Source: Halobacteriales archaeon (lineage in GTDB: Archaea; Halobacteriota; Halobacteria; Halobacteriales; SKSH01). Taken from it: a stretch of 64,000 nt of DNA. Every line of letters begins with the position of its first letter. The stretch's first letter is position 1. The stretch covers positions 1 through 64,000 of the forward strand of contig SKSD01000030.1 in assembly GCA_007118145.1 (NCBI GenBank), read 5' to 3'. This document shows positions 9,572 to 54,985 of the stretch, piece after piece. Below the pieces are notes generated by a model. It worked only from the letters and a program-made list of their open reading frames with translations. It did not search any database and was not told where the DNA came from. A program made the translations under genes and the position numbers.

Positions 9572-9584
9572 GTCGGTCACCAGC

Positions 9585-10163
9585 TCAGAGGATGATGATT
9601 GCGACGATGGAGAGGATGATGACGCCGAGGATGTCGCAGACGTTCGTGACGACCGGGATGGTCGTGTCGTCAGGGTCGAGACCCCACTTGTAAGAGAGCC
9701 ACGTCGCGCCGATCGAGATGACGATCGCCAATACAGCCAGTATCATCCCGGAGATGAGTGAGATCGCCAGTAGGTCAACAAGCGGCAGTGGAGCCGAGAT
9801 GACGAACTCACCGATCGCCCATGCGGCGATACCCAGTCCGGTGAAGATCGTCAGTGCGAGTGCGAGGATGGCACCAACGTTCGTCTGGAGATTCTCATCA
9901 CGTAACTTGAACGTGAGCAACCCGAGGTGGAGTCGGGTTGACAGCCTCGAGCTCATGATACAACCAAGGTTGCCACCCATGTCGATCATCACGGGTACCA
10001 TCACGAGCAGCGTGGGATTACCGAGGTAGGTTTCCTCGAGCGTCTCGAGGATGTATCCCGAGCCCATCTGGAGGATGCTCAAACCGATGAGGATTGGCAT
10101 CATCGTGATGACGATAGCCCGTGTCTCCCACGTCCCGAGTGAGCCCTGTACCGGGAGTGTCAT
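9585..10163 (-). CDS. MgtE/SLC41-type membrane domain protein
   Basis: MVPVMIDMGGNLGCIMSSRLSTRLHLG and multiple TM segments. Confidence 0.85.
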   Translation of the reverse strand: MTLPVQGSLGTWETRAIVITMMPILIGLSILQMGSGYILETLEETYLGNPTLLVMVPVMIDMGGNLGCIMSSRLSTRLHLGLLTFKLRDENLQTNVGAILALALTIFTGLGIAAWAIGEFVISAPLPLVDLLAISLISGMILAVLAIVISIGATWLSYKWGLDPDDTTIPVVTNVCDILGVIILSIVAIIIL

Positions 10164-10738
10164 ACGATCGCCCCCACGACCATGATCGAGACGAACAGGA
10201 AGACGACGCCGAAGATGTCACCCAGCGTGGTGACAATCGGCCCGACCAGGTTGTCGGGGTCGAGCCCGTAGCGATATCCGGCGAAGACGAGGATGACCAG
10301 CCCAATGATCATCACGACCGACGTGAGCAACCCGGCGAGCAGCATGATGCCGACGAGCGTCACGAGCGAAGGATCTGCCTCGGGGCGTAATACCGACGAG
10401 ATCGCCCACGAAAGCAGCCCGATGAAGACCGAGATATAGATACCGTTGATGAACGATGCCGTGATGGCGTTGATGAGACGACGATCCCAGCTCAATTCAG
10501 CTTCGATCAGCCCCTGATGGAGCCCGCTCGCGAGGCGTGCACCGAGTGAGCCGTAGACGTTCCCACGCGTGGCGAGGAATGCCGGTAGTAAGAGCAACAG
10601 TCCCGGGATGCGCTCGAACGCATCGACCATCCCTTCCGTGCCGAGGACGCTCCCCGCAAAGATTCCGCCACCGAGACTGACGAACAGGATGAGGATCGAC
10701 TCGGAGTAGATGCGACGAATCCCGGTGCGCACCGTCAT
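10160..10738 (-). CDS. MgtE/SLC41-type membrane domain protein
   Basis: LLLPAFLATRGNVYGSLGARLASGLHQG; overlaps next gene by 4 nt. Confidence 0.85.
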   Translation of the reverse strand: MTVRTGIRRIYSESILILFVSLGGGIFAGSVLGTEGMVDAFERIPGLLLLLPAFLATRGNVYGSLGARLASGLHQGLIEAELSWDRRLINAITASFINGIYISVFIGLLSWAISSVLRPEADPSLVTLVGIMLLAGLLTSVVMIIGLVILVFAGYRYGLDPDNLVGPIVTTLGDIFGVVFLFVSIMVVGAIV

Positions 10739-36047: not shown

Positions 36048-37496
36048 ATGACCACACCGACCGATACACAACCGGTTCCGACGCTGGACCGACTCGATGC
36101 GGATGGTATCGAGGCCATCCACGATACCTCGATGGAGATCATCGAGGAGATCGGCATCCAGGTGAATCATGACCGTGCACTGCAGACCCTCGAGGAACAC
36201 GGTGCCTCGGTCGATGCTGAGCGTATTGTGACGGCAGATCGCGAGCTCATCGAGGATGCCGTCGATGACGCACCGTCGTCGTTCACCTTACACGGGAGAG
36301 GCCCGGATACAGACCTCGATATCGGTGCTGGCGATATCCTCAGGGCACCAGGGTACGGTCCGCCCAACATCGTGACACATGCGGAAGGCCGACGTAACTC
36401 GCAACTGGCCGACTTCGAGGTGCTCCTCAAACTAGCCCACGAAGAGGATGTCATCAACTGCGCTGGGTACAATCTCTGCGAGCCGAACGATGTGGACCAG
36501 TCGGTCAAACATGTCGCCATGCTTCAGCGGTCCTTGACGATGACCGACATGCCGATCATGGGCTCGACCTACGGTGAGGACCGCGCAGAGACGTGCATGG
36601 AGCTGCTCAAACTCGCCACGGATGACCCAGACCTCGACCGGCCGTACATGGCCGGGCTCATCAATACCGTCCCACCGAGAAGTCTGGATACGCGCATGGT
36701 TGGCGGGCTTGTCACCTATGCAGCGTACGGCCAACCGACGGTGATCTCGTCATTCACCATGGCAGGTGCCTCCGGGCCAGCGACTCTGGCTGGATCGCTT
36801 GCCCAGGCGAACGCTGAGAATCTCCTCGGTATCGCCCTCACACAGTTCGTCAACCCCGGTGCACCGGTAGTCTACGGCGTTCCGTCATCGAACATCGATA
36901 TCAGGTACGGGTCGCTCTCGATCGGGAGTGCCGAATCGGCGCTGTTCACGTCGTTCGCCGGTCAAATGGGGCGGTACTACGACATCCCCTCACGAGGAGG
37001 GGGAAGCCTGTCAGATGCGAAGACCGTCGATTACCAGGCAGGATTCGAGTCGATGCTCACCATGGCGGTCACCGCATTCAGTCAGGTGGATTTCGTCCTC
37101 CATGCGGCTGGTATACTCGAGTCGTACTCGGCCATCTCACCGGAGAAGTTCGTGCTCGACTGCGAACTCATCCGCACACTCGACCGGTTCGTCGAGGGGT
37201 ACCCGATCGACGAGGAGCACTTCGCCCTTGATGTCATGTCATCGGTCGACCCCAGTGGTCATTTCCTCGCACAGCGACACACGCTCGAACACGCAGAGGA
37301 GACGTTCTATATGCCTGATATCATCGACAAGCGATCACACGGAGACTGGGAGGAGGATGGGTCGAAGACGGCGTTCGAACTCGGCAGTGAACGTGTCGAT
37401 GCGCTACTTGCATCCTACGAGGCACCAGACATTGATCCCGATATCGAGTCTGCCATCTCCACACTGGCTGAGGAGGCGATGGCCGGGGTCGAGTAA
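36048..37496 (+). CDS. Trimethylamine/glycine betaine methyltransferase (MttB) superfamily protein, non-pyrrolysine
   Basis: 482 aa uninterrupted; IHDTSMEIIEEIGIQVNHDRALQTLEEHGASVD, GYNLCEPNDVDQSVKHVAML, TMAGASGPATLAGSLAQANAENLLGIALTQFVNPGAPVVYG, FVLDCELIRTLDRFVEGYPID. Confidence 0.9.
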   Translation: MTTPTDTQPVPTLDRLDADGIEAIHDTSMEIIEEIGIQVNHDRALQTLEEHGASVDAERIVTADRELIEDAVDDAPSSFTLHGRGPDTDLDIGAGDILRAPGYGPPNIVTHAEGRRNSQLADFEVLLKLAHEEDVINCAGYNLCEPNDVDQSVKHVAMLQRSLTMTDMPIMGSTYGEDRAETCMELLKLATDDPDLDRPYMAGLINTVPPRSLDTRMVGGLVTYAAYGQPTVISSFTMAGASGPATLAGSLAQANAENLLGIALTQFVNPGAPVVYGVPSSNIDIRYGSLSIGSAESALFTSFAGQMGRYYDIPSRGGGSLSDAKTVDYQAGFESMLTMAVTAFSQVDFVLHAAGILESYSAISPEKFVLDCELIRTLDRFVEGYPIDEEHFALDVMSSVDPSGHFLAQRHTLEHAEETFYMPDIIDKRSHGDWEEDGSKTAFELGSERVDALLASYEAPDIDPDIESAISTLAEEAMAGVE

Positions 37497-37626
37497 TCGG
37501 ACAACGATACCGCTGAGACACCTCAATGGCCGTTCTTCCGGTGGACACACACACCGATCACATCCTCTCAACTCACGCGTATATCACCATCATTGATAAG
37601 AACCGACCGAGAAGTTCTGCGTTGAG

Positions 37627-39348
37627 ATGACACCGACAGACGATTCTGACGCTACATTGTCGACAGATTATGAGATTGCAAAATCGGTCGAGAAGCAACC
37701 CATCTGGGAGGTCACCCAGCCCTTCGGTCTCGACCGATCCGACCTCGACCTCTACGGCGATTACAAGGCCAAGTTGACACAGGAGACGGTCAACGAGCTG
37801 CAAGGTGGCGACACGGGAGATTCGAGGCTCATCCTCGTCACCGGGATGACACCGACCCCGCTGGGTGAGGGCAAGACGGTGACGACCGTCGGCCTCGGCC
37901 AGGCGTTTAACCAACTCGATGAACAGACGCTCATCTGCATCCGCGAGCCATCGTTAGGGCCGGTCTTCGGCATCAAGGGTGGTGCCGCCGGTGGTGGCTG
38001 GTCGCAGGTGCTCCCCATGGAGGACGTCAACCTGCACTTCACGGGCGATATCCATGCACTCACCGCCGCACACAACCTCATCTCGGCCATGCTTGACACC
38101 CACCTCGCCAAGGGTAACGAGCTCAACATCGATATCAACGAGGTGGTCTGGCCGCGGTCAATCGACATGAACGACCGCGCACTCAGAGACACGGTCATCG
38201 GTCTCGGTGGGCGTACGGGTGGTGTCCCTCGCGAGGACGGTTTCCTCCTCACCGCCGCGTCAGAGTTGATGGCCGTACTCTGTCTCGCCGACAGCCTGGC
38301 TGACCTCAAAGAGCGTATCTCACGCATCATCATCGCGTATGACGAGGATGGCGAACCGGTCACCGCTGGCGATATCGAGGCGGCCGGTGCTGCGGCGATC
38401 CTCCTCAGGGATGCGCTTCGTCCCAACGTCGTCCAGACCATCGAGGGCACACCGGCGTTCATCCACGGTGGCCCGTTCGCAAACATCGCCCACGGTACCA
38501 ACTCACTCATCGCCGACAAGCTCGCATTCGGTCTCGCCGATTACGTCGTTACCGAGGCTGGGTTCGGCTCCGACCTTGGTGCTGAGAAGTTCATGAACGT
38601 CGTCTGCCGCTTCGGTGAGATGGAGCCCGATGCCGTCGTCATCGTTGCCACGATTCGAGCACTCAAATACCACGGTCTCGATATGTGGCCGGCAGACCAG
38701 GATGCTCTCTCCGACCCCGATGTCGATGCGGTGCGAAACGGCTTTGCGAACCTCGATAAGCACATTGAGAACCTCCAGAAGTTCGGCGTCCCTGTCATCG
38801 TGGCGATCAACCGGTTCCCACAGGATACCGATGAGGAGGTCCAGGCGGTCATCGATCATTGTCAGGATGACCTCGGGGTCCGAGCTGCTGAGTCGAACGT
38901 TTTCGGCGAAGGTGGCGAGGGTGGCATCGACCTTGCAGAGAACGTCATCGATGCAGTCGAGCATGACGATGCAGCCTTTGAGTACCTCTACGATGCCGAT
39001 GCACCCATCAAGGAGAAGATCGAGACGATCGCGACGGAGATCTACGGTGCAGGTGAGGTGAAGTACGTCGGGTCAGCTGAGAAGGATATCGCGAAGCTCG
39101 AGGAGATCGGTATGGATGACACACCGGTCGTCATGTCGAAGACGTTCCACTCATTCAGTGATGATTCGTCGATCAAGGGCGCACCGACAGGTTGGGAGCT
39201 CGAGGTGAAGGAGGTCTACCCGTCGGCAGGTGCAGGGTTCGTCGTCGCCCTCACCGGTGACGTGTTGACACTCCCAGGTCTGCCTGCCCGACCGGCCGCG
39301 GCGGATATGGATATCGACCCGGACGGGACGATCCACGGGTTGTTCTGA
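37627..39348 (+). CDS. fhs: Formate--tetrahydrofolate ligase
   Basis: LVTGMTPTPLGEGKTVTTVGLGQAF, REPSLGPVFGIKGGAAGGGWSQVLPMEDVNLHFTGDIHALTAAHNL. Confidence 0.97.
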   Translation: MTPTDDSDATLSTDYEIAKSVEKQPIWEVTQPFGLDRSDLDLYGDYKAKLTQETVNELQGGDTGDSRLILVTGMTPTPLGEGKTVTTVGLGQAFNQLDEQTLICIREPSLGPVFGIKGGAAGGGWSQVLPMEDVNLHFTGDIHALTAAHNLISAMLDTHLAKGNELNIDINEVVWPRSIDMNDRALRDTVIGLGGRTGGVPREDGFLLTAASELMAVLCLADSLADLKERISRIIIAYDEDGEPVTAGDIEAAGAAAILLRDALRPNVVQTIEGTPAFIHGGPFANIAHGTNSLIADKLAFGLADYVVTEAGFGSDLGAEKFMNVVCRFGEMEPDAVVIVATIRALKYHGLDMWPADQDALSDPDVDAVRNGFANLDKHIENLQKFGVPVIVAINRFPQDTDEEVQAVIDHCQDDLGVRAAESNVFGEGGEGGIDLAENVIDAVEHDDAAFEYLYDADAPIKEKIETIATEIYGAGEVKYVGSAEKDIAKLEEIGMDDTPVVMSKTFHSFSDDSSIKGAPTGWELEVKEVYPSAGAGFVVALTGDVLTLPGLPARPAAADMDIDPDGTIHGLF

Positions 39349-39529: not shown

Positions 39530-41569
39530 ATGTACATGTTAGATGCTGGCTTGGTACTCGTCGTCGATGAAGACCCCACACGAGACCTCACCGAGCCAAT
39601 CGCTGAACGCGGCTTCGATGTCGTCACGTCACCGTCATTCAGTGAGCTCAAAGATCATGACCTTGAGGGGGTTAGCTGCGTCGTCTGTGCCCAGTCTTCG
39701 ACGCGACCGGTGACGACCCTCATCGAGGCACTCAGCGGCGAACACAGACCTGTCGTCTTTGTCTATAACCATCAGGCGGCTGCCGCCCGTGCCCGGGATG
39801 CCGGTGCAGCCGCGACGGTGCCACTCGACGGGACTGGTGATGGGTGGGCGAACCACCTGGGTGCCACTGTCGAGGGTATCGTTCGCCATCATACACGACC
39901 GGGTGACCAACTGGTCTCACCTGCACTCGATGAGTTACCCGATATCCTCTTCGTGACCACGATCAGCGGCCGACTGCTCAGGTGGAACGACCGCCTGACG
40001 GAGGTGACTGGTTACAGCGATGAGGAGATCGCCGACATGCAGCCACTCGAGCTATTCGACCATCTGGACATCGACCGTATCGAGCAGACCATCGGTAAGA
40101 TCGTCATGAACGGTCATGCGATGGTGGTTGCAGATATCCAGACGAGGGAGGGCGATGCGATCCCGCATGAGTTCACCGGGTCCCTCATCGAGGTCGATGG
40201 CACACAGGCGATCGTCGGGACCGCACGTGATATCAGCGATCGTTTGGCACGAGAGCAAGCGCTGGCCGAACAGGCCGAGCGCCTTGAGGCTGTCAATCAC
40301 GTTAACGCACTCATCAGAGACGTGATGGGTGTATTACTTGCCGCAGAGACACGCGAGGAGCTCATCGCCAACGTCTGCGATCGACTGACCGGGCCGAACG
40401 GCTATCGCCTCGCTTGGATCGGCGGTTATGATAGCGCCTCTGGTAGGGTCGAACCTGAGGTGTGGTCTGGTGAGGGGGCATCCTATCTCAAGGAACGCCC
40501 GACTGGCGAGGGGAGTGAGGACACCGTGACCGCCCTGACGGCAATCCGGGAGCGAGCCGTCGTCTTCGCACAGGACGTCTCATCGGATGCGGCTGCGACT
40601 GGCTGGCGGGCAGCCGCGCTGGAACACGGACATCGTGCCGCGGCAGCGATCCCTCTCACCTACGACTCGGTGGCCTATGGCTGTCTCTGTCTGTATGCTG
40701 ACCGACCGGATGCGTTCGGTCCGCTCGAGCGGGAGGTACTCGCCGAGCTGGGTGATATCATCGGCCACGCCATCCATGCCACCGAGGCGCAACGAGCACT
40801 CATCACCGATACGGTCACCGAGTTACAGTTCAGGCTGACCGATGAGGACTCCTTCCTCGTTCAGGCGGCAGAGGATGTGGATGCGAACCTATCGCTCGTC
40901 GGAGCGGTCGGTCGACCTGATGGGGCGATCATCCAACTGTATGAGGTATCAGGGATCGATCCGGAGACGGTCCAGCACTTCGTCGAACTCACCCCGACCG
41001 ATGCGGAAATCGTCACTCGACATGAGGGTGACTGTGTGGTGAAGGTCACGATCACGGAGTACTCGATCGCCCACGTCCTCGCTGAGGCTGGGGGGAGTAT
41101 CCGTTCGATCGAGGTGGTCGACGGTGAGGTGCGAATCAGTGCTCACATCCCGACGACGGTCGATGCTGGAGAGGTACTCGATCGTATCGGACATCTCTTC
41201 GATATCGAGTTCCTGTCAAGGCGTGAGGTAGAACGTCCTGCCCACACCGACACCGAGTTCCGGGCAAGTGTTGAGCGACGTCTCACCCAGCGACAGTTCG
41301 ATGTGCTTGAGACGGCGTTCAACGCGGGCTTCTTTGAACAGCCACGGATGAAGTCAGGTGAGGACATCGCTGAGCTATTGGAGATTTCTGCACCCACGTT
41401 CCATCAACACCTCAGGATCGGTGAGCGCAAGCTGCTTGAGGTACTGTTCGAACACCGAACACCCGAGCGTGGGGATATCGACTGGGCCGCGTTCGACATG
41501 GATGTCTTTCATGAGGTGGCGCTCGAGTTCGGCGAGGTCTCTGAGTCCGATCAGACCGAGTCAGAGTGA
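39530..41569 (+). CDS. PAS/GAF-domain HTH_10 (Bat-type) transcriptional regulator
   Basis: PAS, GAF-like region, C-terminal HTH LTQRQFDVLETAFNAGFFEQPRMKSGEDIAELLEISAPTFHQHLRIGERKLLEVLFE. Confidence 0.9.
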   Translation: MYMLDAGLVLVVDEDPTRDLTEPIAERGFDVVTSPSFSELKDHDLEGVSCVVCAQSSTRPVTTLIEALSGEHRPVVFVYNHQAAAARARDAGAAATVPLDGTGDGWANHLGATVEGIVRHHTRPGDQLVSPALDELPDILFVTTISGRLLRWNDRLTEVTGYSDEEIADMQPLELFDHLDIDRIEQTIGKIVMNGHAMVVADIQTREGDAIPHEFTGSLIEVDGTQAIVGTARDISDRLAREQALAEQAERLEAVNHVNALIRDVMGVLLAAETREELIANVCDRLTGPNGYRLAWIGGYDSASGRVEPEVWSGEGASYLKERPTGEGSEDTVTALTAIRERAVVFAQDVSSDAAATGWRAAALEHGHRAAAAIPLTYDSVAYGCLCLYADRPDAFGPLEREVLAELGDIIGHAIHATEAQRALITDTVTELQFRLTDEDSFLVQAAEDVDANLSLVGAVGRPDGAIIQLYEVSGIDPETVQHFVELTPTDAEIVTRHEGDCVVKVTITEYSIAHVLAEAGGSIRSIEVVDGEVRISAHIPTTVDAGEVLDRIGHLFDIEFLSRREVERPAHTDTEFRASVERRLTQRQFDVLETAFNAGFFEQPRMKSGEDIAELLEISAPTFHQHLRIGERKLLEVLFEHRTPERGDIDWAAFDMDVFHEVALEFGEVSESDQTESE

Positions 41570-41932: not shown

Positions 41933-44900
41933 ATGGGAATACTTTGGTCTATGAGAGTGGGAATGTCAGATAAACCCACACAAGATGAACCCAGGCAGAT
42001 TCCTTTTCAGCACGATTCCCCAACAGGTGAAGTAACATCAGATCGAGCCGATGCGGTCGCACGACGTGACTTCCTGCGTTCGACATCAGCGGTGGCTGCC
42101 CTCGGCTTGGCAGCACCCACAGTTGTCACACAGGATGTGGCAGGTCTGATCGGTAACGATCCCGCGCCAGATGACATCCTCGTCTTCGCGAACCCGAGGG
42201 TGCAGGAGGCGATGCACGCATGGGAACGCGGCTATCGAGGTAACCCGATGCGATCGCTCGCGTTGACCGACACCGGTGTCGACAGTCGTCATCCGGACAT
42301 CGGTCCGTGGAACGGTATCACCGCGACCACGGCGAATGGTGAACTTGAGCTCCGTCGGATCGATCAAGACCGTGATTGGGAGCCCGACACGACGACCCTC
42401 GACGAGGAGGTATTCGAGGGCGAGGAGCTCGGTGGTGAGGTCGTCGGTTTCAGCGAGACGTATGAACTCGATGTCCCAAAGGGTACAGAATTGATCGAGG
42501 TGACACTCGATTGGGACTCCACGACGTCGGACGATATCGAATTGCGATTCCTCGAAGACGGCAACCAGCGAGGCCTCGATCGGTCGGACGAGCCGCCACT
42601 CACCGTCGAGTATCACGAACCAGACGAAGACACCACCTTCGAGATCGAGATCATGGTCTGGTCTGGTGTCATCGACTACGTCGCGACAGCCACCCACAGC
42701 GAGGTCAGCGGTCACCTGACCCCACCGTGGGAACCCGACGATCCCGATCCATTTGCACTCGTCGATGATACCGGTGAACCCGCGCTCGTTGGGTGGCACA
42801 ACGATTTCCCACGGTTCGGCCGATATACCAGACCTCGCGACGAGAACAGTCACGGCACGCACGTGGCCTCGATCATGGCAGGATCTGGCCGGGCAGCCAC
42901 GTTCGACACCGATAGCCTCCAGTTTGACGCACCGAGAACGACCCTCGTCCTCGGTGATACACTCACGTACACCGTCGATGCTGAGGCTGACACCGGTGTC
43001 TTTGCTAGTGTATACGGATCGGCTATCGATGTCATCATCGAGGGTCCTGATGGGCAGGAACTCGCAGGGGCATACGGTGCCCAGGGGACGAGCGAGGAGA
43101 CGTTCGAGAACAATATCGCAGAGACACCAACGGTCCACGACGATGGGGAGGCAACCTACATGGTGCACGTTCGGGCCGTTGAGGGTGAGTTGCTTTCAGT
43201 GGGCAATGTCGAAACCGTCGCAGTCGGTGTGTTCAAGCATCCGGTAGACACAGCTGGTGACGCCCTTGACACCGGCGATATCTCGCTCCATGGGGGTATG
43301 GCACCCGGGTACTCGATCACCTCACTGTCGGATCTCGGCACGGCGACCGTGGCCATCGGCGAGTTCGCCGATTCGTTCGCCGAGACGTTCAACATTCGAG
43401 CGGTCAACATGTCCTGGGGGTACATCGGAGGCCTACCGTTGGGTGGCGCGGGCGGGATTCTCGACGACATCCCGACGTATATCCGCAGTCTTGCCAACGC
43501 AGGCATGCTCAGTGTGGCTGCAGCTGGCAACGATGCCACACCGGCGAGCGGTAACGGGGCTCCTGCGGTGGTGAATGAGGCGATCTCGGTCGTTGCAACC
43601 GATCGACGAGATGGGATCGCATCCTACTCAAGTGGCGGCATTGGTGGCATCGACGACGAGTCTGGCGAATTCTACATGAAACCTGATGTCACCGCACCAG
43701 GTGGCGAGCTCACCGAGTTGGACCTCGCGGCGTTAACTGGGGATCCTGAGGCGAGCTTCACAGATAGGGAGCCAGCTGCTGGGCTGGGTGAGGCAGAGTT
43801 GGAGCCCGTTGTTGACATAGAGGACCTCGATGGCGACGATGTCGCGCCGAAGACGGTCCTTGACGCTGGCATCACCGGCGAACTTGGTTATGAACCGGAG
43901 CTGAGCACGGTCGTCATCGACGCGTTCGAGGAGGAAGCGCTGCTCGCTGACCTCCTGCTCAACCGACACGAGGGTCGCGAACGGGGTTCATCGAAGGGCA
44001 GAGGTGGCGGTGGGCGCCCACATGACGGGATCGAGGGCGATGGTCGCGACGGCGTACGTGATTTCACCGGGAAGGGTGGCACAAGCATGGCAGCCCCATC
44101 GGTCGCCGGTGTCACCGGCCTCGTCGCAGATGCCCTTGAGAACGATGCACCCGAGGCGATTTCGATCCCCGAACCTGCTGAGACGGGTTACGAAGACGTA
44201 CTCAGACTCAAACAGATCATCCTCGCAACGGCCACGGAGACGGCACTCACCGCAGCTCCGTATCACGCTGCGAAGGCGCCGGTCTACCGATTTGGAGAGC
44301 GCGATCAGTACGAGGGTTACGGCCGTGTCAACGTCGGCCCGGCAATCGACGCTGTGACGGTCGATCTGACCGAGACCTCGACAACGGGCGAGGTCGGCCT
44401 CGATATCCCCCGAGATGAGCGTGCCGTGGCCGGGTACGTCCTCGTTGACGAGCCCGGTGAGGCGAGTGCCACCATCGAGTTCAGTCACTACGGTGGAGGC
44501 AATGCAGGTGCCACTCGGGGTGATCCACACCTTGACCTCTTCGTCTACGATGCCCAAAACCCCGATCCTCTCACCGGTGAACCGACGGTCGTCGCGCGTG
44601 ATGCCGGTGTGACCGGCGATGCGGAGGTGTCGTGGAGCGTGAGTGTTGACGACCTTGATGATAACGACGGCGAACGTGTCTTCTTCGTCGTTGCCAAGCT
44701 TGTCAATGTCCCTGGTTTGGTCAACGGCTTCGATGTTCAGGTGTACATCGACCTCGAGACAGCCTTCGACGCAGATGGACTCGTCGTCGGTGCCGGTCGG
44801 GAGGGAGACGGCTCTGTGTTCACCGGCGGACAGACCACCAGGAACGACCTTGATGTCGAGGTACTGTTTCCAGAGGGTGTGGAAGTGCTTATCCGCGATC

Positions 44901-45193
44901 ACGCCCCACCAGGGTGGGATGTCGACGAGGAGTTCGGCGATACCGAGGCGACGACGCCAGCGTTAACCGGTGGCACGCACGTGTACTTCGGCATAGACGA
45001 CCCGAGCGACCTCTTCGAGGAACTCACCTACTTCTCTGAGGCCCCCGATAACATCGAGGATTCTGGTCGTTACACCTTCGGCCCGATCGCCGTGACGACA
45101 GAAACTGATGAGGAGGGGACTCTGACCGACCGTGACTGGGTGACGATCGCCGGTACGGAGCGTGAGGTGACGGTCGTCGCAGAAGAGACCTGA
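41933..45193 (+). CDS. Tat-type secreted S8 (subtilisin-like) serine protease, large
   Basis: Signal VARRDFLRSTSAVAALGLAAP; catalytic motifs ALTDTGVDSRHPD, NSHGTHVASIMAG, GTSMAAPSVAGVTGLV. Confidence 0.9.
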   Translation: MGILWSMRVGMSDKPTQDEPRQIPFQHDSPTGEVTSDRADAVARRDFLRSTSAVAALGLAAPTVVTQDVAGLIGNDPAPDDILVFANPRVQEAMHAWERGYRGNPMRSLALTDTGVDSRHPDIGPWNGITATTANGELELRRIDQDRDWEPDTTTLDEEVFEGEELGGEVVGFSETYELDVPKGTELIEVTLDWDSTTSDDIELRFLEDGNQRGLDRSDEPPLTVEYHEPDEDTTFEIEIMVWSGVIDYVATATHSEVSGHLTPPWEPDDPDPFALVDDTGEPALVGWHNDFPRFGRYTRPRDENSHGTHVASIMAGSGRAATFDTDSLQFDAPRTTLVLGDTLTYTVDAEADTGVFASVYGSAIDVIIEGPDGQELAGAYGAQGTSEETFENNIAETPTVHDDGEATYMVHVRAVEGELLSVGNVETVAVGVFKHPVDTAGDALDTGDISLHGGMAPGYSITSLSDLGTATVAIGEFADSFAETFNIRAVNMSWGYIGGLPLGGAGGILDDIPTYIRSLANAGMLSVAAAGNDATPASGNGAPAVVNEAISVVATDRRDGIASYSSGGIGGIDDESGEFYMKPDVTAPGGELTELDLAALTGDPEASFTDREPAAGLGEAELEPVVDIEDLDGDDVAPKTVLDAGITGELGYEPELSTVVIDAFEEEALLADLLLNRHEGRERGSSKGRGGGGRPHDGIEGDGRDGVRDFTGKGGTSMAAPSVAGVTGLVADALENDAPEAISIPEPAETGYEDVLRLKQIILATATETALTAAPYHAAKAPVYRFGERDQYEGYGRVNVGPAIDAVTVDLTETSTTGEVGLDIPRDERAVAGYVLVDEPGEASATIEFSHYGGGNAGATRGDPHLDLFVYDAQNPDPLTGEPTVVARDAGVTGDAEVSWSVSVDDLDDNDGERVFFVVAKLVNVPGLVNGFDVQVYIDLETAFDADGLVVGAGREGDGSVFTGGQTTRNDLDVEVLFPEGVEVLIRDHAPPGWDVDEEFGDTEATTPALTGGTHVYFGIDDPSDLFEELTYFSEAPDNIEDSGRYTFGPIAVTTETDEEGTLTDRDWVTIAGTEREVTVVAEET

Positions 45194-45234
45194 TCAAATC
45201 CGTCACAGACAGCGCGACAATCAGTAATCCCAAC

Positions 45235-48200
45235 ATGACAGCACACGATCCTACCACACACAACGTTTCAGACAGGGGAAGGCTTGAGGAACGAACAACC
45301 GAGCATGTCGACCGACGCTTTGAGGATACCCCACTAACGCGGCGGCGATTCGCGATACTGGCAGGTACCATCGGCGGTGCGTTGGCGTTGCCTGGCAATG
45401 CGTACGCAGATATCGAGTCGGGCAAGATGACTGAGGAATACGAGTTCATTGTCAACCATACTCCTGATGACTTCGCCGTATCGACGGTGATCGAGTTCAC
45501 CAGTATCCTGGGTATCGCCGATCTCAAAGACCTCGGCATCGAGGTGGATGACGATTGGACGCTCGATGAGCCACCAGCAGCATACGCACAATTGACGACG
45601 AGTCAGGTCGAGGATGTTGTCGAACTTCCGACCGCTGAAACGCTCAGTTGGGCTCCTGGGTCGAACCCATTCTGGCGCCTTGGACAGTATCCATTCGGGG
45701 TGTTCCCAGCACCGTACCGCTCGGTCGACTTCATCCATTACGAGCAGATGATCTCGGGGATGGAGTATCTCGGGGCAGAGCACCCCGAGATGCTCAAATT
45801 CTACGCTCTGGCAGACGAAGACAATCCACACGATGTCGTCTATGACCGGAGTCCGGGTCATAACAACAACCTCACCGATCGACACGATCCAAAGGATATC
45901 CACGTCGCCGAGTTGACGAAACCACCCGATGGCTACGACACCCTCGAAGAGTTCAGGGACTCGAAGCAATTCGCCGAGCGCCAGAAGGTGATGTACGAGG
46001 CGTCCATCCACGGTCTCGAACGGGCTGGTCCCGAGGCCTGTTATCGCTTCATCGAGCGCATCCTCACCGGTAGAGAGATCGAGTTCGAGCAGTTGCTCGA
46101 TGAGTGCGTCCTCATCATCCTCTCTGTCAATCCCGACGGGTGGGTCGCCCGTGACCCCCAATACGACAGCGGGTGGCAGGTCACCGGGGAGGGCCGGGAC
46201 GACCTTCGCTTTCCTGCCTGGCCCCAGTACGAGCGGGGCAATGCGCAGGTGTTCGATACCAACCGACAGTACCCAACCGTCGGTTGGGTCAATCCGGGTT
46301 ATCACCCGGGAGAACCGGACGAAGACCGGTGGGCCGAGGACAATCCCCACGACATCATCAACATGGTTCCGGATGCCATGGGGACGGTCGAGCACTTTCG
46401 CCAGTACGACAATCTCACCCACGGCGCTGACCTTCACGCGATGTTGTGGAACTCTGACTTCATCCTCGGCCTCATCAACCAGATCGAGTACACGCAAGAC
46501 GAATTCCATGACCTCTATGAGATGAACCACGTCCTCGAACAGAGCCTCGAGGCAAAGATGGACGAGTGGGAGTCACTCGCCGATATTCAGCATGAGGCGG
46601 CGGACGACTTCAACGTCGACCTGTTGGGGTTTCCAGTGCTTCCAGAGACGGCATACGACTACTCGACCATCTGGGACACGATCGGTTACACCGTCACCGG
46701 TGCACTCATCGGCTTCATGGGGGCAGCCGAGGAGCGAGGCGGCCTTGACGTGACGACGATGGCCTTCGAGATGGCATTCAGTCACATGGTGGGCGGGAAC
46801 AAGTGGGAACCCGTCCTCGGTGAGTGGTGGGTTGAGGGTTACATGGAGGCGATGCGGACGATGACGGACTACGCGTTGCGTGACGTGGATTCCGAGGTCG
46901 CGACCCCCGATGGAACGGTCGAGACGGTCGCATTTGTGACGAGTGACACGGTCATCCGGTCATCAGACGACCTCGAGTTCCTTCAGGAGGATCCTGACAA
47001 CGAGGAGACCAACGCCGTCATGACTCACGACCATCAGCAACTGGAGGTGGCAGCAGAATCGGTCGAGACCACGACCGTGGACGTTGCCTCGAACCTGCAC
47101 ACGCTATCCATCCAGCCACACGCTGAGCAGGCGCTGGCTGACGTGGTCCTCAGAGATCCCGATGGTGCAGAGGTACGGGCATACCGCCCGTCTGATACCG
47201 GTGGTGAGGCGCACCACGACTACGAACCGTTCGTTGTCCGCGAACCCGTAGGTGGTACCTGGACGGTCGAGGTGACGAGTCTGATGGCCGAGCACCCGGT
47301 CCAGATGGACCTCCACGTCGGGACGCTCCAGTCCGACTACGAACACCCAGACCCACGTGACGCCCTTGGCTTCGAACAGGAGGCATACGAGGTCTCACCG
47401 CTCGTGTTCTTCGATGAGTTCGCGGCTGACAACGACCTCGTCGAGACCGTTGGGTTGACCCCAGAGGAGGTCTCCACCGAAGGGATTGACGCAGACCACC
47501 TCGTGGTCATCCACGACGACCGTGGTGAAGACCCGGTGGGATACGTGGATGCCATCGATGCCTTCGTCGATGCTGGAGGGAACCTCGTCGTGACAGACAC
47601 CGGGGTGCACCTCCTCGGGGCACTCGAGTCAGTCGATGGCATCTCCAGCGACGACATCAGCGACGAGACCTTCGGGGTCAGCCATCTCGAAGAGCGTGTC
47701 GAGGACCACCCACTGCTCGTTGATACTCGGCCGATCCAGCGCATGACCTGGAAGGTCGCGCCGCTTGGCTACCCATACGCCAACGACGCCCCGATGACAC
47801 TCGTCGACGACGATGCCTTCATCACGGCCGGGGGTACCGTCGCCGGGTTGACCGATGACCATGTCAGCGCTGGCTCGATCTTCACCGACGACGAGGCTTG
47901 GCAGGGTATCCACGTCATCGGCGGGCTGTTGCCGCCGGCTACCCAGCGGGAGCTGCATCCCTTCGGACTCAAGAACTACGTGATGGCCTACTTCGGCCTG
48001 ACCGTCCTGATCAACGCCCTCGGGATGGAGCAACATCGCTTTGTCGACGGTGAGCTCGTCCGGGTCATCGGGGATACCGGAAAGGAACCGATCACCCCAG
48101 ACCTCACGGTCATCGGTGACCGTGATGGCTCTGGCAGCGTCTTCACCGGTGGCCAGACCAACCGGACGGAGCTGGACGTCGAGGTGGTGACACCACCTGA

Positions 48201-48516
48201 GGAGACGGTTCTTGTCCGCGATCACGTTCCTGAGGACTGGGATGTTGACGAGGAGTTCGGGGATGTCGAGGCGACGACGCCGTCGATGTCCGGTGGGACG
48301 TGGGTCTACTTCGGCCTCGACGACCCTCAGGGTGATTATGCTGACCTCACCCACTTCGCCCAGGCACCAGACGACCTGCTCGAGTCGGGTACCTACACGT
48401 TCGGACCGATTGAGGTAACGACGGATACCGAAGCTGATGGTACACTGATCGACCGCGACTGGCAAGCGATCGAGGGCAACGATCTGTCCGTGACGGTCCT
48501 CGGATTACACACTTGA
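45235..48516 (+). CDS. Tat-type secreted M14 zinc carboxypeptidase family protein
   Basis: LTRRRFAILAGTIGGALALPGNAYA; zinc motif SIHGLERAGPEACYRFIE, downstream His in LTHGADLHAMLW, late FEMAFSHMVGG. Confidence 0.85.
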   Translation: MTAHDPTTHNVSDRGRLEERTTEHVDRRFEDTPLTRRRFAILAGTIGGALALPGNAYADIESGKMTEEYEFIVNHTPDDFAVSTVIEFTSILGIADLKDLGIEVDDDWTLDEPPAAYAQLTTSQVEDVVELPTAETLSWAPGSNPFWRLGQYPFGVFPAPYRSVDFIHYEQMISGMEYLGAEHPEMLKFYALADEDNPHDVVYDRSPGHNNNLTDRHDPKDIHVAELTKPPDGYDTLEEFRDSKQFAERQKVMYEASIHGLERAGPEACYRFIERILTGREIEFEQLLDECVLIILSVNPDGWVARDPQYDSGWQVTGEGRDDLRFPAWPQYERGNAQVFDTNRQYPTVGWVNPGYHPGEPDEDRWAEDNPHDIINMVPDAMGTVEHFRQYDNLTHGADLHAMLWNSDFILGLINQIEYTQDEFHDLYEMNHVLEQSLEAKMDEWESLADIQHEAADDFNVDLLGFPVLPETAYDYSTIWDTIGYTVTGALIGFMGAAEERGGLDVTTMAFEMAFSHMVGGNKWEPVLGEWWVEGYMEAMRTMTDYALRDVDSEVATPDGTVETVAFVTSDTVIRSSDDLEFLQEDPDNEETNAVMTHDHQQLEVAAESVETTTVDVASNLHTLSIQPHAEQALADVVLRDPDGAEVRAYRPSDTGGEAHHDYEPFVVREPVGGTWTVEVTSLMAEHPVQMDLHVGTLQSDYEHPDPRDALGFEQEAYEVSPLVFFDEFAADNDLVETVGLTPEEVSTEGIDADHLVVIHDDRGEDPVGYVDAIDAFVDAGGNLVVTDTGVHLLGALESVDGISSDDISDETFGVSHLEERVEDHPLLVDTRPIQRMTWKVAPLGYPYANDAPMTLVDDDAFITAGGTVAGLTDDHVSAGSIFTDDEAWQGIHVIGGLLPPATQRELHPFGLKNYVMAYFGLTVLINALGMEQHRFVDGELVRVIGDTGKEPITPDLTVIGDRDGSGSVFTGGQTNRTELDVEVVTPPEETVLVRDHVPEDWDVDEEFGDVEATTPSMSGGTWVYFGLDDPQGDYADLTHFAQAPDDLLESGTYTFGPIEVTTDTEADGTLIDRDWQAIEGNDLSVTVLGLHT

Positions 48517-48541
48517 TTTACATCACCCACACAACACTTCA

Positions 48542-50050
48542 ATGACACGAACTGACCCGACGACACGAAGCGTATCGAACAGACGACGATTCCTCAGACT
48601 CATCGGTGTCACCGGTGCCGGTGGTCTCACCCTTGGTGCCACCCTCCCCGGCGCTAGCGGGTTCGTCGAGGATGAACTGTACGAGGTGATCATCGTCTTC
48701 GAATCAGCTGATGACGTCGACCTGTTGTTCGACCTCGATCTTGAGACCGGGGTGTACGAGTACGAGATGCTCCCCTTCGCATACACGATGCTCACCGGTG
48801 CGCAGATCGACACGGTCGTGACCTGGCCAGAGGTGCTCCGTGTCGCAGAGAACGAACAGCTGCAGTGGGAGCATGACGACGCCCGTGCGGATACCAGGGC
48901 CAACGACGTACAGGCCGGGGAGGGATTGGACTCGCCGTATACAGGTGAGAACGTTCATGTGGCTGTCGTTGACACCGGTATCGATCCATTGCATCCAGAT
49001 CTGGCCGGCAACATCGAGGGCCACTGGCAGTGGGTCGGCGATCCGCTATCAGATCCTCAGGGGACTGTCTGGATCGAGGCAGGCGATGTCAACACCGACG
49101 ATAACGGACACGGCACCCACTGTGCGGGCAGTATCACCGCAACCGGGACACAAAGCGATGGTGAGTTCCGTGGGATGGCACCGGAGACGAGTATCACGGC
49201 CTACTCTGTGAACATCACAGTGTCGATCGACAAGGCCATCGCAGCGTATGATCATATGATGCAACTTCAGGAAGCAGGCGATCACGAGATTCACATCGCC
49301 TCGAACTCGTGGGGTGCCGGTCCCGGTGAGTTCGACCCGTACGACCCGTTCAATGTCGCCGCATGGAAGGCCCACGAGATGGGCATCCTCACGACGTTCT
49401 CCGCTGGGAACGACGGCGAGGCGTGTGAGACAGAGCTCGGACTCAACTGCTGGACGGAGTTCGACACCCTCGGGCATCGAAAACAGGCACCGTACGTACT
49501 GAGCGTCGCTGCCACGCATGCAGATCAGTCTCTGGCGTGGTTCTCCTCCAGAGGTGCCAAGGACCTGAATCACGATCGAGAGGAGGCTTACCAGAACATG
49601 GTGAAGTTCTATTCTGGCGTCCCTGAGGACGAGATCGATGGCCCACTCGGGCTGTACCGACCGGCCGTCGGGGCCAAGGGTGCAAGCCTGATGAGCACGC
49701 TCAACCCCGCCCATCCGTTACAGGCGGTCGAATCGGATACCGAGGTGTGGTACGGTCGGCTATCTGGAACGAGCATGTCGAACCCGACCGTCGCAGGCTG
49801 TGCAGCATTGCTCATCGATGCATATATCGAGAACGTCGGCGAGGTACCGGACCCGATGGCGGTAATCAACACCATCGAGGCAACGGCTGACCCACATGCC
49901 ACCGACGGACTGGAGGATCCAGACGGAACTGCGACGTACACGGTGATGAACATGGGGACAGGCTATGTCGATGCACTCGCGGCGACACAGCGAGCTGAGA
50001 ACGGTGACCTGGCTGACTTCGATGAGGTGGAACTCCTCCCAGGTGACTGA
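48542..50050 (+). CDS. Tat-type secreted S8 serine protease
   Basis: SNRRRFLRLIGVTGAGGLTLGA; VAVVDTGIDPLHPDLAG, NGHGTHCAGSITATG, LSGTSMSNPTVAGCAALL. Confidence 0.92.
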   Translation: MTRTDPTTRSVSNRRRFLRLIGVTGAGGLTLGATLPGASGFVEDELYEVIIVFESADDVDLLFDLDLETGVYEYEMLPFAYTMLTGAQIDTVVTWPEVLRVAENEQLQWEHDDARADTRANDVQAGEGLDSPYTGENVHVAVVDTGIDPLHPDLAGNIEGHWQWVGDPLSDPQGTVWIEAGDVNTDDNGHGTHCAGSITATGTQSDGEFRGMAPETSITAYSVNITVSIDKAIAAYDHMMQLQEAGDHEIHIASNSWGAGPGEFDPYDPFNVAAWKAHEMGILTTFSAGNDGEACETELGLNCWTEFDTLGHRKQAPYVLSVAATHADQSLAWFSSRGAKDLNHDREEAYQNMVKFYSGVPEDEIDGPLGLYRPAVGAKGASLMSTLNPAHPLQAVESDTEVWYGRLSGTSMSNPTVAGCAALLIDAYIENVGEVPDPMAVINTIEATADPHATDGLEDPDGTATYTVMNMGTGYVDALAATQRAENGDLADFDEVELLPGD

Positions 50051-50053
50051 ACG

Positions 50054-52153
50054 ATGTTCAAAAGCGACACCGATCGATGTGAACGTATCGCCATGATTAC
50101 CAGACGCTCGGCGTTGAAGGTCGCCGGTGGAGCGATCGGGCTCTCACTCGTGGTCGGCTCAGCGACCGGTCACAAGTACACGACCGATGGCCCCCTTGGC
50201 GAGCAGTTCGACGGCAATCGACCACAATCGACAGCGGGCACCGAGATCGTCGGTTATCACAGTGGGGGTGGTATCGGTTCTGAAGCAATATCGGGGTCAC
50301 CTGGCGACCCTCACTGGGGTGCGTTCACCGAGCTCCGCGTGCATGACGATATCGCCGTCCAGAGCGTCTTCTCCTCACGTGGTGAAACACCCGGTCGGGG
50401 CATGATGGTGCTTGACATCGGTGACTACTCACGTGCCACGAGCTCGGCTACACTTGATACCGCCAGCCTCACCGTCCTGTCCTATTATGGCAATGACAAC
50501 GGTGCGTCGGCGTGTATGGACGTCAAGCTCTCCGATGACGGCAAGTACGCCTTCATCTCGAAACAGCCGCTGACAGCGTTGTTTGACGAGGCAGAACTCC
50601 ACTTCGATATTGATGACGATGCCGACAGCGGTGGTGGCGATGGAGCCGCCCTCGAGGTGGTCGACCTGAGCGACCCGGGCAATCCCGAGTTGGTAACGCA
50701 GTCGTCACTGTCGATCTGGGCACTGGGGCCACACAACGCATGGTATCACCAGATAGCCGGCGAGGAGTACGTCTTCACCGTCCATGGCGAGGATGGCCTC
50801 ACTGGTGGTATCAACGTGTTCCGATTCGACCGCGACCTCTCTACGCTAGAGCACGTCAACTGGTGGAACTTCTCGGCCGAACTCGCCCAACCGGAGACGG
50901 AGATCGACACGGCCGGTGGCGAGTACTATGCCCATGATATCGTCGTCCAGGATGACCCGCGCTTCGGTACGCCGGTCGCCTATCTTGCGAACTGGGATGC
51001 CGGGACGAGGGTTCTCGATGTCTCCGACCCGACCGATATCGAGGAGATCGGACTGTTCGAGATGGAACGGTCACACCACACGGTACCGGCGCCGACACTG
51101 CTCAACGGCAAGCGGGTCTTCATCGCCGGGCATGAGAATCCGTCCGGTGGTGCGGGCTGGGTCCGCAATGAGGGCGAGTCAGGTCACTATTACCTCGTGG
51201 ACGCAGATCCACTCGATTCCGTCCTGAGTGACGATACAGACGAGCCCGTCTACCTCGGTATCTCGTCAACCATCCATGACGACGGGGTCGTTCCGGGCAC
51301 CCGCGAACCATCCGAGATGTACGATGATGTATCCGCGACGACAGAACTCGATCACTGGATCCTCTTCGAGGATGTCACCCAGACCTTCGACGAGACCCCA
51401 GGGTTCGAACAGGAGGCTACTGCCGATGATTGGGAGTATGAGGGCTTCGATGACTTCAATCTCAGCAGTCACAACATCGATATCGATCACCAGGGGTTCG
51501 TCACCGTGGGTCACTACCACGCTGGCACGAGATTCTTACAGATTACGGATGGGTTTTCCCTCGAATCGATCGGTTACAGTCGTGTGGGTGAGGATGTCCC
51601 CGAGGAATCGACCATGATGGCTCTTACCTCTGGGACGCCGTTTCACTGGTGTGCGGTGATGAGAAACGGCGTCACGTTCGCTGGAGGGATTAATGCCGGA
51701 CCACAGGCCATTGTCCACGATGACATCACCGTCGGCGAGGATACCCCCGTTGATGCAACCATCGAGCGCGAGGCTGATGCCTCGCTGTTTACCGCCGGCC
51801 AGACGAGTCAGGTGAAGATTCACGTCGATGCTGACGAACCGGTGCGGATACGAGACCGGTTACCAGCGGCGTGGGTCGTCGAGGAGGAACATGGCGACGT
51901 GGCCTCCATCGACACGATTGGCGATGGCTTTCGTCAGGTCATCACGCTCGACGAGACGATCGAGGAGGGTACCTTGCGTTATTACGTCACCGTTCCGGAG
52001 AACCTCCTCGAGACCTTCACGATCGGTCCGGTCGAGTTCGCCAGACCGACGGTCACCTCGACCTACGGTGGTGGCATCTCGACGAACAACTACCTGTGGC
52101 GGAAGGTGAACGCCGAGACGGTCACGAAGACGGTCGTCGGTGCTTCCCTCTGA
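50054..52153 (+). CDS. Tat-type secreted LVIVD/beta-propeller-like protein with C-terminal domain shared with operon partners
   Basis: ITRRSALKVAGGAIGLSLVVGSATG; repeats such as TRVLDVSDPTDIEEIGLFEM and ALEVVDLSDPGNPELVTQ. ATG at 50093 is an alternative start. Confidence 0.78.
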   Translation: MFKSDTDRCERIAMITRRSALKVAGGAIGLSLVVGSATGHKYTTDGPLGEQFDGNRPQSTAGTEIVGYHSGGGIGSEAISGSPGDPHWGAFTELRVHDDIAVQSVFSSRGETPGRGMMVLDIGDYSRATSSATLDTASLTVLSYYGNDNGASACMDVKLSDDGKYAFISKQPLTALFDEAELHFDIDDDADSGGGDGAALEVVDLSDPGNPELVTQSSLSIWALGPHNAWYHQIAGEEYVFTVHGEDGLTGGINVFRFDRDLSTLEHVNWWNFSAELAQPETEIDTAGGEYYAHDIVVQDDPRFGTPVAYLANWDAGTRVLDVSDPTDIEEIGLFEMERSHHTVPAPTLLNGKRVFIAGHENPSGGAGWVRNEGESGHYYLVDADPLDSVLSDDTDEPVYLGISSTIHDDGVVPGTREPSEMYDDVSATTELDHWILFEDVTQTFDETPGFEQEATADDWEYEGFDDFNLSSHNIDIDHQGFVTVGHYHAGTRFLQITDGFSLESIGYSRVGEDVPEESTMMALTSGTPFHWCAVMRNGVTFAGGINAGPQAIVHDDITVGEDTPVDATIEREADASLFTAGQTSQVKIHVDADEPVRIRDRLPAAWVVEEEHGDVASIDTIGDGFRQVITLDETIEEGTLRYYVTVPENLLETFTIGPVEFARPTVTSTYGGGISTNNYLWRKVNAETVTKTVVGASL

Positions 52154-52906: not shown

Positions 52907-54985
52907 ATGTCCACCGAGCAAGACGACCTTGTCAAGACGATCTGTCCATACTGTGGTGTCGGGTGCGGACTGCAGTTGCAACCGGGCGATGAGCCAGGTG
53001 AGGTATCGATAAAACCGTGGTTCGACAACCCCGTCAACGGTGGTGCACTGTGCATCAAGGGTGGTGCGTCGACCCAGGTGGTCGATCACGAAGAGCGCCT
53101 CAAGGAGCCTCTCATCAAGGAGGACGGCGAGTTCCGCGAGGCGAGCTGGGACGAGGCGCTCTCGTTGATCGTCGATGAACTCATGCGCATCCGTGATGAG
53201 CACGGACCGGATGCGGTCGGTTTCTTCGGTTCATCGAAGGTGATGAACGAGGAGAACTACCTGCTTCAGAAGCTGTCGCGTCGATTCGGGACAAATAACG
53301 TGGACAACTGCACGCGCATGTGTCATGCATCGACCGTATATACACTCCGTCAAAGCCTCGGGGCAGGTGCGATGACCAACAGCATGCAGGACCTGATGGA
53401 GGCTGGTGATGTCTACTGGATCCAGGGGGCGAATCCGGCCGAACAACACCCTATCGCACATAGCCAGTACCTCAGACAGGCTGCCCTTGAGGATGCCACC
53501 ATCATCCAGGTCGACCCTCACGCCAACAAGACCACACGTGACGCCGATATCCATCTCCAGCTCGAGCCCGGAACCGACATCCCGCTTTTGAACATCGTCA
53601 TCAAGACGATCATCGACGAGGGTCTCATCGATGAGGCGTTCATCGAGGAACGCACGAAGGGATTCGATCACCTCAAGGCGACCCTGGCTGACTTCGATAT
53701 GGAGGAGGCAGCCGATATCTGCGGTGTGCCACTCGAGGACATCCAGGAGGCTGCACGAATCTATGGTGAGGCTGAGAACGCCGCCATCTTCACCGGGATG
53801 GGTATGAGCCAGCATACCTGCGGTGTCGATAACGTGCAAAACGAGGTCAATCTCGCACTCATCACGGGCAACCTCGGCCGACCGGGGACAGGCGTCAATC
53901 CACTCAGGGGTCAGAACAACGTCCAGGGGACGTGTGACGTCGGTGCGATGCCGAACGTCCTACCCGGTTACCAGAACGTCGATGATGATGAGGCACGGGC
54001 ATCAGTCGAGGAGGTATGGGGCTTTGAGATCCCACCCGAACCTGGGCTGACCAACGTCGAGATATCGAACGCGATCGGCGAGTCCATCCATGGGCTGTTC
54101 GTCATGGGTGAGAACCCCATCATGAGCGAGCCCGATTCGAACCACGTCGAAAAGCGCTTCGCGAACGACCTCGAATTCCTCGTGGTCCAGGATATCTTCA
54201 TGAGCGATACCGCCGAGTACGCCGACGTGATCCTCCCTGCGACGAGCTGGGCAGAACGTGGTGGGACCGTCACCAACACAGACAGGCGTGTCCAGTTGAT
54301 GCGCCCTGCGACGAGCGTGCCTGGCAACACCCGCCATGACATCGATATCCTCTGCGAGCTCGGTACCCGGATGTTCGGCGAGGGATTCGACTTCGACGAT
54401 GTCGAGACGGTCTTCGAGGAGTTGCGGCAGGTCTGTCCGATCTATCACGGGATGACGTACGAAGCCCTCGGGCTCGAGGGCATCCAGTGGCCGTGTTATG
54501 AACCCGGCGACGAGGGTGACCAGTATCTATATGAGGAGTCGTTCGACACACCCGATGGCCTTGGCGCCATCAGGGGTGTCTTGCACCAGCCCCCAAAGGA
54601 GGTGCCAGACGACGAGTACACGCTCATCCTCACCACGGGCCGACTCGAAGAGCACTACAACACCGGGACGATGAGCACGCGCTCGCCCACACTCATCCGG
54701 CGGACACCGGAGAACTTCGTAGATATCCACCCGGCCGATGCGGAGGCACGCGGTATCGAGGATGGTGACTACGTGAAGATACGATCACGCCGTGGCGAAA
54801 TAGTCCTCGAGGCGAACGTGACGGAGGATATCAAGGAGGGGTCGATCTGGACGACACCTCACTTCTCAGATGCACGGGCGAACACACTCACGAACAACGT
54901 GATGGACCCACTGGCAAAGATCCCCGAGTACAAGGCTGCTGCAGCCGAGGTAGAACGCGTCGAATCAGGTCAGGCGGCCGACTGA
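52907..54985 (+). CDS. fdhF: Formate dehydrogenase alpha-subunit-like molybdopterin oxidoreductase (Cys type)
   Basis: 4Fe-4S motif CPYCGVGCGLQL...GGALCIKG; NNVDNCTRMCHASTVYTLRQSLGAGAMTNS; TGMGMSQHTCGVDNV, NTDRRVQL. Confidence 0.9.
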   Translation: MSTEQDDLVKTICPYCGVGCGLQLQPGDEPGEVSIKPWFDNPVNGGALCIKGGASTQVVDHEERLKEPLIKEDGEFREASWDEALSLIVDELMRIRDEHGPDAVGFFGSSKVMNEENYLLQKLSRRFGTNNVDNCTRMCHASTVYTLRQSLGAGAMTNSMQDLMEAGDVYWIQGANPAEQHPIAHSQYLRQAALEDATIIQVDPHANKTTRDADIHLQLEPGTDIPLLNIVIKTIIDEGLIDEAFIEERTKGFDHLKATLADFDMEEAADICGVPLEDIQEAARIYGEAENAAIFTGMGMSQHTCGVDNVQNEVNLALITGNLGRPGTGVNPLRGQNNVQGTCDVGAMPNVLPGYQNVDDDEARASVEEVWGFEIPPEPGLTNVEISNAIGESIHGLFVMGENPIMSEPDSNHVEKRFANDLEFLVVQDIFMSDTAEYADVILPATSWAERGGTVTNTDRRVQLMRPATSVPGNTRHDIDILCELGTRMFGEGFDFDDVETVFEELRQVCPIYHGMTYEALGLEGIQWPCYEPGDEGDQYLYEESFDTPDGLGAIRGVLHQPPKEVPDDEYTLILTTGRLEEHYNTGTMSTRSPTLIRRTPENFVDIHPADAEARGIEDGDYVKIRSRRGEIVLEANVTEDIKEGSIWTTPHFSDARANTLTNNVMDPLAKIPEYKAAAAEVERVESGQAAD

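Follow-up and report, generated by a model that had tools for sequence, protein, structure and literature searches.

In type IX secretion of Bacteroidota, a common beta-sandwich domain terminates many unrelated exported enzymes, proteases included. Among the haloarchaea, extracellular subtilases of the halolysin group (SptA, R4, Nep and 172P1) end in a beta-rich C-terminal domain of ~125 residues, and in SptA this extension aids binding of protein substrates and stability and also binds collagen (PMC3158780). Other exported haloarchaeal proteins, the PGF-CTERM substrates of the archaeosortase ArtA, are fixed to the envelope via their C-terminal part; HVO_0405, a twin-arginine translocation (Tat) substrate with an LVIVD domain, is among those with the tripartite signal (PMC7157517). 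Here we describe an uncatalogued C-terminal domain, also of ~125 residues, that is shared by three of the four proteins of an operon in a Halobacteriales archaeon (assembly GCA_007118145.1, contig SKSD01000030.1, positions 1 to 64,000; this whole stretch of 64,000 nucleotides is referred to as the window). The proteins are a long S8 subtilase (S8L), an M14 zinc carboxypeptidase, a small S8 subtilase (S8s), which does not have the domain, and an LVIVD-repeat protein. Like the halolysins, the window S8L is an extracellular S8 protease of a haloarchaeon that has a beta domain at its C-terminus. Comparison of the domain across genomes gives us high confidence that it is a modular unit, present in a single copy, strictly C-terminal, carried by six passenger classes in our sample and exchanged between unrelated enzymes.

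A C-terminal domain shared within the operon

An earlier note on this DNA described homologous C-terminal domains in the proteins that begin at 41933, 45235 and 50054, and pairwise BLASTP with the full proteins bears this out. The shared C-terminus was recovered between S8L and M14 (E = 7e-45, 51% over 175 aa), between M14 and the LVIVD protein (E = 4e-11, 31% over 134 aa) and between S8L and the LVIVD protein (E = 2e-8, 34% over 99 aa). The third copy is indeed the diverged one, being 32% identical to copy 1 as against 59% for copy 2, and the DNA ranges first proposed agree with the profile boundaries to within ~10 codons. In the same pairwise comparisons nothing comparable linked the window S8s to the shared region. 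The reported absence of the domain from the small S8 subtilase thus stands for the window protein, but not as a rule, since small S8 proteins elsewhere carry it. The three carriers finish 2 residues past the domain, and a profile search found exactly three copies in the whole source genome (1.72 Mb, 79% complete, 88 contigs).

Pfam and NCBIfam searches left the domain in the window copies unassigned, a PDB sequence search matched no solved structure, and no paper describing it was found in the open-access library searched, although a description elsewhere is possible. The earlier note had held that its proposal would fail if this were a common, already characterised generic domain; instead there is no curated family match, and the domain is confined to a few exported enzyme classes. 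Neither the family nor its exclusive distribution appears in the libraries searched; its fold, and the principle of a C-terminal accessory module, are of known kinds.

Structure prediction, which the earlier note had suggested as a check, gave a confident beta sandwich for copy 2 (AlphaFold2 with 77 sequences; mean predicted local distance difference test score, pLDDT, 94.6; predicted template modelling score 0.88). Foldseek searches of the PDB with this model returned YcnI (template modelling (TM) score about 0.58), cohesins, CNA/pilin and adhesin domains, with identities of ~5-14% and best TM-scores of ~0.5-0.6. Although cohesins, CNA/pilin immunoglobulin (Ig)-like domains and YcnI belong to the same fold class, the low identities and partial TM-scores set them apart, and on the modelled structure the resemblance to Ig-like, cohesin and adhesin structures is one of fold class only. 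No Pfam cohesin match was found for the domain, and this likeness too lies at the level of the fold, and a Foldseek search of viral models likewise gave only fold-level matches. Six positions (F12, G15, Q16, T17, W44 and G99) are invariant in the 77 sequences, and R5, D8, S10, T13, D38, P41, V46, D52, P87, P100, V130 and T135 are at least 90% conserved.

The nearest catalogued families are DUF11 (PF01345), with weak matches in 7 of 77 members (best E 6.4e-5), and NEW3 (NPCBM_assoc, PF10633), with weak matches in 10 of 77 (best E 0.0022); at E <= 1, neither family matches any of the window copies. Both are beta sandwiches like this domain, whose D-x-x-P-x-x-W/G motif can be aligned with DUF11 in register. 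When its profile was compared with that of eight DUF11 repeats (hhalign), the alignment was in register but not significant (probability 1.4%, E 0.036), and with the model matches below threshold we reject membership in DUF11. DUF11 repeats are often tandem and internal, whereas this domain is single and terminal and has motifs of its own, R-x-x-D-x-S-x-F-T-x-G-Q-T and V-V-G-x-x-T. A distant Ig-like kinship with DUF11 and NEW3 is plausible but unproven. Four tandem DUF11 repeats were also seen in a 921-residue frame of the same genome (G000:C7 4365-5816; L222, L224, L226 and L228), and their similarity to the operon domain is not significant.

Distribution, passengers and transfer

A profile built from the three copies matches 47 of 394 genomes of the order, spread over 24 of 95 genera, and a single genome has as many as 10 matches. 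In a phylum-wide search nearly all matches inside the order scored 109-147 bits, compared with 21-44 bits for those outside it, and several of the latter are to segments that recur within a single protein, as DUF11-like repeats do. We also scanned 84,980 species, each represented by a single genome, with two short peptide patterns, an approach liable to overlook diverged copies. It yielded 48 loci, of which one is labelled only "Euryarchaeota archaeon" and the others bear haloarchaeal titles. No viral contig encodes a relative of the domain.

Our sample of carriers comprised 197 distinct open reading frames (ORFs) from 149 loci, with one domain each. Of these, 192 include the complete domain and a stop codon; the distance from the end of the domain to the C-terminus is at most 15 residues in 168 of them and at most 60 in the remaining 24. 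All 180 complete carriers fell into six passenger classes: S8L (58), LVIVD (41), M14 (29), S8s (24), S15 (21) and a purple-acid-type phosphatase (7). These classes were assigned with models seeded from the window proteins and two others, which do not resolve subtle sub-classes. The 17 further, mostly weaker matches belong to the same classes apart from two that are unclassified, L187 (a doubtful match of 18 bits) and L196. At L196 (about 8900-10220) a frame with a Tat signal and an alpha/beta-hydrolase-like (lipase-like) region precedes a second frame that terminates in the domain, with a frameshift between the two; this is possibly a seventh passenger type, or else a broken gene or an assembly error.

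The carriers have the appearance of exported proteins. A Tat-like motif, called by a loose regular expression as twin arginine plus a hydrophobic stretch, occurs in 172 of 180 carriers compared with 241 of 946 other long ORFs under the same rule. On the window proteins the Tat models themselves scored below threshold (Pfam TAT_signal on S8L; NCBIfam TAT on S8s and the LVIVD protein). None of the 172 carriers with the motif has a lipobox cysteine; a published survey found a lipobox in 46-65% of haloarchaeal Tat substrates (PMC2945643). Cysteine occurs in only 4 of 180 domains, and in none of the window copies. The last segment of the domain is conserved (V at 99%, the final T at 91%).

In 19 of 41 LVIVD carriers the domain is followed by a Gly/Ala-rich and then a basic stretch. 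Such proteins lie outside the window's lineage and have 32-49 extra residues (L066 7121-9172, L075 10625-12727, L104 7914-9956 and similar), ordered as a Gly/Ala-rich part, a QRDR-like basic part and an acidic end. The Gly/Ala-rich part is weakly hydrophobic (best 17-residue mean 0.5-1.3) and its modelled helix is of low confidence; the tail might serve to locate these carriers at the membrane.

In the M14 family the domain is an add-on, since proteins that lack it finish at the point of its expected start: 20 of 20 such relatives sampled end 0-24 residues, mostly 0-2, past the M14 module. We thus reject an essential role in folding or export for the M14 enzyme. A close S8L relative was found in 19 genomes, every one of which also has the domain, and S8L may for this reason be its original home. 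In the small S8 family the window protein sits in a domain-less clade of 17, carriers form separate groups, and supported branches force at least three gains or losses of the domain. Two of the 'losses', both nested, turn out to be halves of broken genes. Domain-bearing small S8 genes split in two frames were seen at L097 9244-11283, L045 10314-12353 and L152 9009-11188, and are apparently decaying or misassembled.

A tree of 148 domains (125 columns, quick search) leaves individual branches unsure but strongly supports one mixed clade, in which the domains carried by S8L, M14 and S15 in the window's lineage (the window and genomes of families f8 and f15) group together with 99% support in the Shimodaira-Hasegawa-like approximate likelihood ratio test. 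Because this clade mixes passengers, the comparison indicates that the domain has moved between unrelated enzymes. Passenger labels on the tree need 23 changes where the minimum is 5. Identity between the S8L and M14 domains of the window and f8 is 0.57-0.60, whereas domains of the same class in families f4, f5, f6 and f17 are only 0.34-0.47 identical to those of the window and f8. For 128 of 148 domains the nearest relative comes from a different genome and is attached to the same passenger, so that domains mostly travel with their passengers. For 16 of 139 domains the best match on another passenger lies within the same genome, with ~5 expected, so that concerted evolution within genomes, considered as a sign of a co-evolving partner, is weak at most.

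The operon and its neighbourhood

The four genes lie on the same strand with gaps of 41, 25 and 3 bp, and such short gaps are consistent with an operon. Catalytic motifs expected for the families are readable in both S8 proteins and in M14. S8L has the triad motifs for Asp, His and Ser (DTGVD at 113, HGTHVA at 307 and GTSMAAP at 716), and M14 has HxxE at 259, DTNRQ at 341 and GADLH at 397. Coordinates are collected in the table.

Table. Genes of the operon, the gene preceding it and the three domain copies, in window coordinates
Feature	Position	Strand	Basis and remarks
BAT-type regulator (PAS, GAF, BAT, HTH_10)	39530..41569	+	Pfam; ends 363 bp upstream of operon
Long S8 subtilase (S8L), Tat-exported	41933..45193	+	Pfam PF00082, E 1.4e-26
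C-terminal domain copy 1 (on S8L)	44792..45190	+	Profile boundaries, residues 954-1084
M14 zinc carboxypeptidase, Tat-exported	45235..48516	+	Pfam PF00246, E 7.8e-14
C-terminal domain copy 2 (on M14; the copy modelled with AlphaFold)	48115..48513	+	Profile boundaries, residues 961-1091
Small S8 subtilase (S8s), without the domain	48542..50050	+	Pfam PF00082, E 2.9e-34
LVIVD-repeat protein, Tat-exported	50054..52153	+	Pfam PF08309, E 2.3e-5; NCBIfam choice_anch_B below threshold
C-terminal domain copy 3, diverged (on LVIVD protein)	51761..52150	+	Profile boundaries, residues 570-697

Six other genomes have a relative of the BAT-type regulator as the gene directly upstream of S8L and two have one adjoining it downstream, and a winged-helix regulator often adjoins S8L or M14 elsewhere. 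At L101 (2441-15508) S8L, S8s, LVIVD and M14 all carry the domain, and M14 is there split over two frames. A copper-type P1B ATPase (HMA, E1-E2) lies near domain genes at L133 (11551-14115), where it directly adjoins a tailed LVIVD carrier, and in four other genomes. Within the window, the ORFs appear to encode an MttB-like methyltransferase adjoining a formate-tetrahydrofolate ligase (36048-39348) and, just downstream of the operon, a formate dehydrogenase-like gene (52907-54985); together these are a possible one-carbon pathway.

Candidate roles and comparison with known systems

Surface attachment or recognition of a common partner, two of the roles suggested in the earlier note, is still the best reading, because the domain is uncatalogued and restricted to a few exported enzyme classes. 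The third suggestion, assembly, is weakened in its obligatory form. We favour an account in which a haloarchaeal Ig-like accessory module has been added repeatedly to the C-terminus of a restricted set of Tat-exported hydrolases. After export, the folded beta sandwich would bind a ligand common to all carriers, likeliest a component of the cell envelope. S8 endopeptidases, the M14 carboxypeptidase, the S15 X-Pro dipeptidyl peptidase, the phosphatase and the beta-propeller protein would then be held together near the cell, and peptides would be released where uptake is possible. Binding is presumed to be non-covalent, since the carriers have no lipobox and the window copies no PGF-CTERM-like tail. 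As the carriers include a phosphatase and a propeller protein, what they share is probably a location, a single extracellular site of tethering, rather than a substrate. We place this account as a whole close to an even chance, and tethering or targeting to the surface as the function of the domain slightly below that.

Several observations weigh against this account. Domain-less M14 relatives likewise have no lipobox, which makes its absence a property of the passengers and not one linked to the domain. No protein family accompanies the domain everywhere, and the conserved neighbours are regulators and general neighbours. S8L was the only carrier found in nine genomes, of which seven have a completeness of 95% or more, so co-localising several enzymes cannot be the sole use of the domain. 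The proposed function is read from sequence and a structural model, and ligand, receptor and localisation are all putative.

The main rival is a substrate-binding and stabilising domain that would grip a bulky or salted-out protein substrate and so raise the efficiency of the peptidase. The majority of carriers are peptidases, genomes with S8L alone fit such a role well, and the SptA extension offers a precedent by assisting activity on protein substrates (PMC3158780). The same domain nonetheless sits on phosphatases, LVIVD propellers and the one frameshifted lipase-like case, and the two cysteines that define the halolysin extension have no counterpart in a domain where cysteine is so rare; on balance this analogy makes a rather unlikely explanation. 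Alternatively, the domain might mediate binding between carriers, and the operon would then encode a protease complex that forms outside the cell. Clustering points this way: 108 of 197 domain genes have another domain gene on the same strand within 5 kb, sets of S8L, M14, S8s and LVIVD recur across genomes, at L107 (5924-16871) all four carry the domain, unlike in the window, and within the window's lineage the domains are closely related even between different passengers. Yet the nine genomes with S8L as sole carrier make obligatory assembly unlikely, the mid-operon small S8 is often without the domain, and closest relatives on the same passenger elsewhere argue against general matching within genomes. 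We regard such a complex as improbable.

A C-terminal sorting signal, perhaps cleaved, for an export or anchoring machine acting in the manner of type IX secretion or archaeosortase would account for the strict C-terminal placement and the conserved last segment, and the tails of 19 of 41 LVIVD carriers loosely resemble the archaeosortase tripartite signal (PMC7157517). M14 relatives are exported by Tat without the domain, however, no conserved processing enzyme adjoined the genes in the neighbour analysis, and those tails are only weakly hydrophobic with a low-confidence model, which leaves this analogy a slim chance. Slimmest of all is a generic DUF11-like structural spacer with no specific binding role. 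It draws on the weak DUF11 and NEW3 matches among members and on the weak out-of-order profile matches, mostly on repeated segments in one protein, but single-copy C-terminal placement, few enzyme classes and six invariant positions are atypical for a spacer, and the profile comparison with DUF11 repeats gave little probability of kinship.

We are not aware of a good account of how haloarchaea hold non-lipidated Tat enzymes near the cell, and under the tethering account the domain is a concrete, testable candidate for doing so. The uncatalogued family marks a coherent set of exported haloarchaeal protein-breakdown enzymes, now annotated merely as 'S8 family serine peptidase' and the like, and its profile offers a means of searching any genome for the whole set.

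The described systems differ from this domain in distinct ways. Two conserved cysteines mark the extension described on halolysins, whereas this domain is nearly free of cysteine and occurs on S8, M14, S15, LVIVD and phosphatase proteins. Unlike ArtA substrates, the window proteins end at the domain, with neither a PGF motif nor a hydrophobic segment or basic tail. Export here is of the Tat type, there is no sequence match to type IX domains, and cleavage or covalent attachment would be hypothetical for this domain; like the type IX domain, however, this one is common to unrelated exported enzymes and always C-terminal. A bolder and distinctly unlikely version of tethering would be an unrecognised co-localisation system, in which a transferred Ig-like tag docks complementary Tat-exported hydrolases on a dedicated envelope receptor to build a protein-degrading machine at the surface. 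Such a putative docking system would be similar in principle to cellulosomes or to sets of proteases sorted by type IX secretion.

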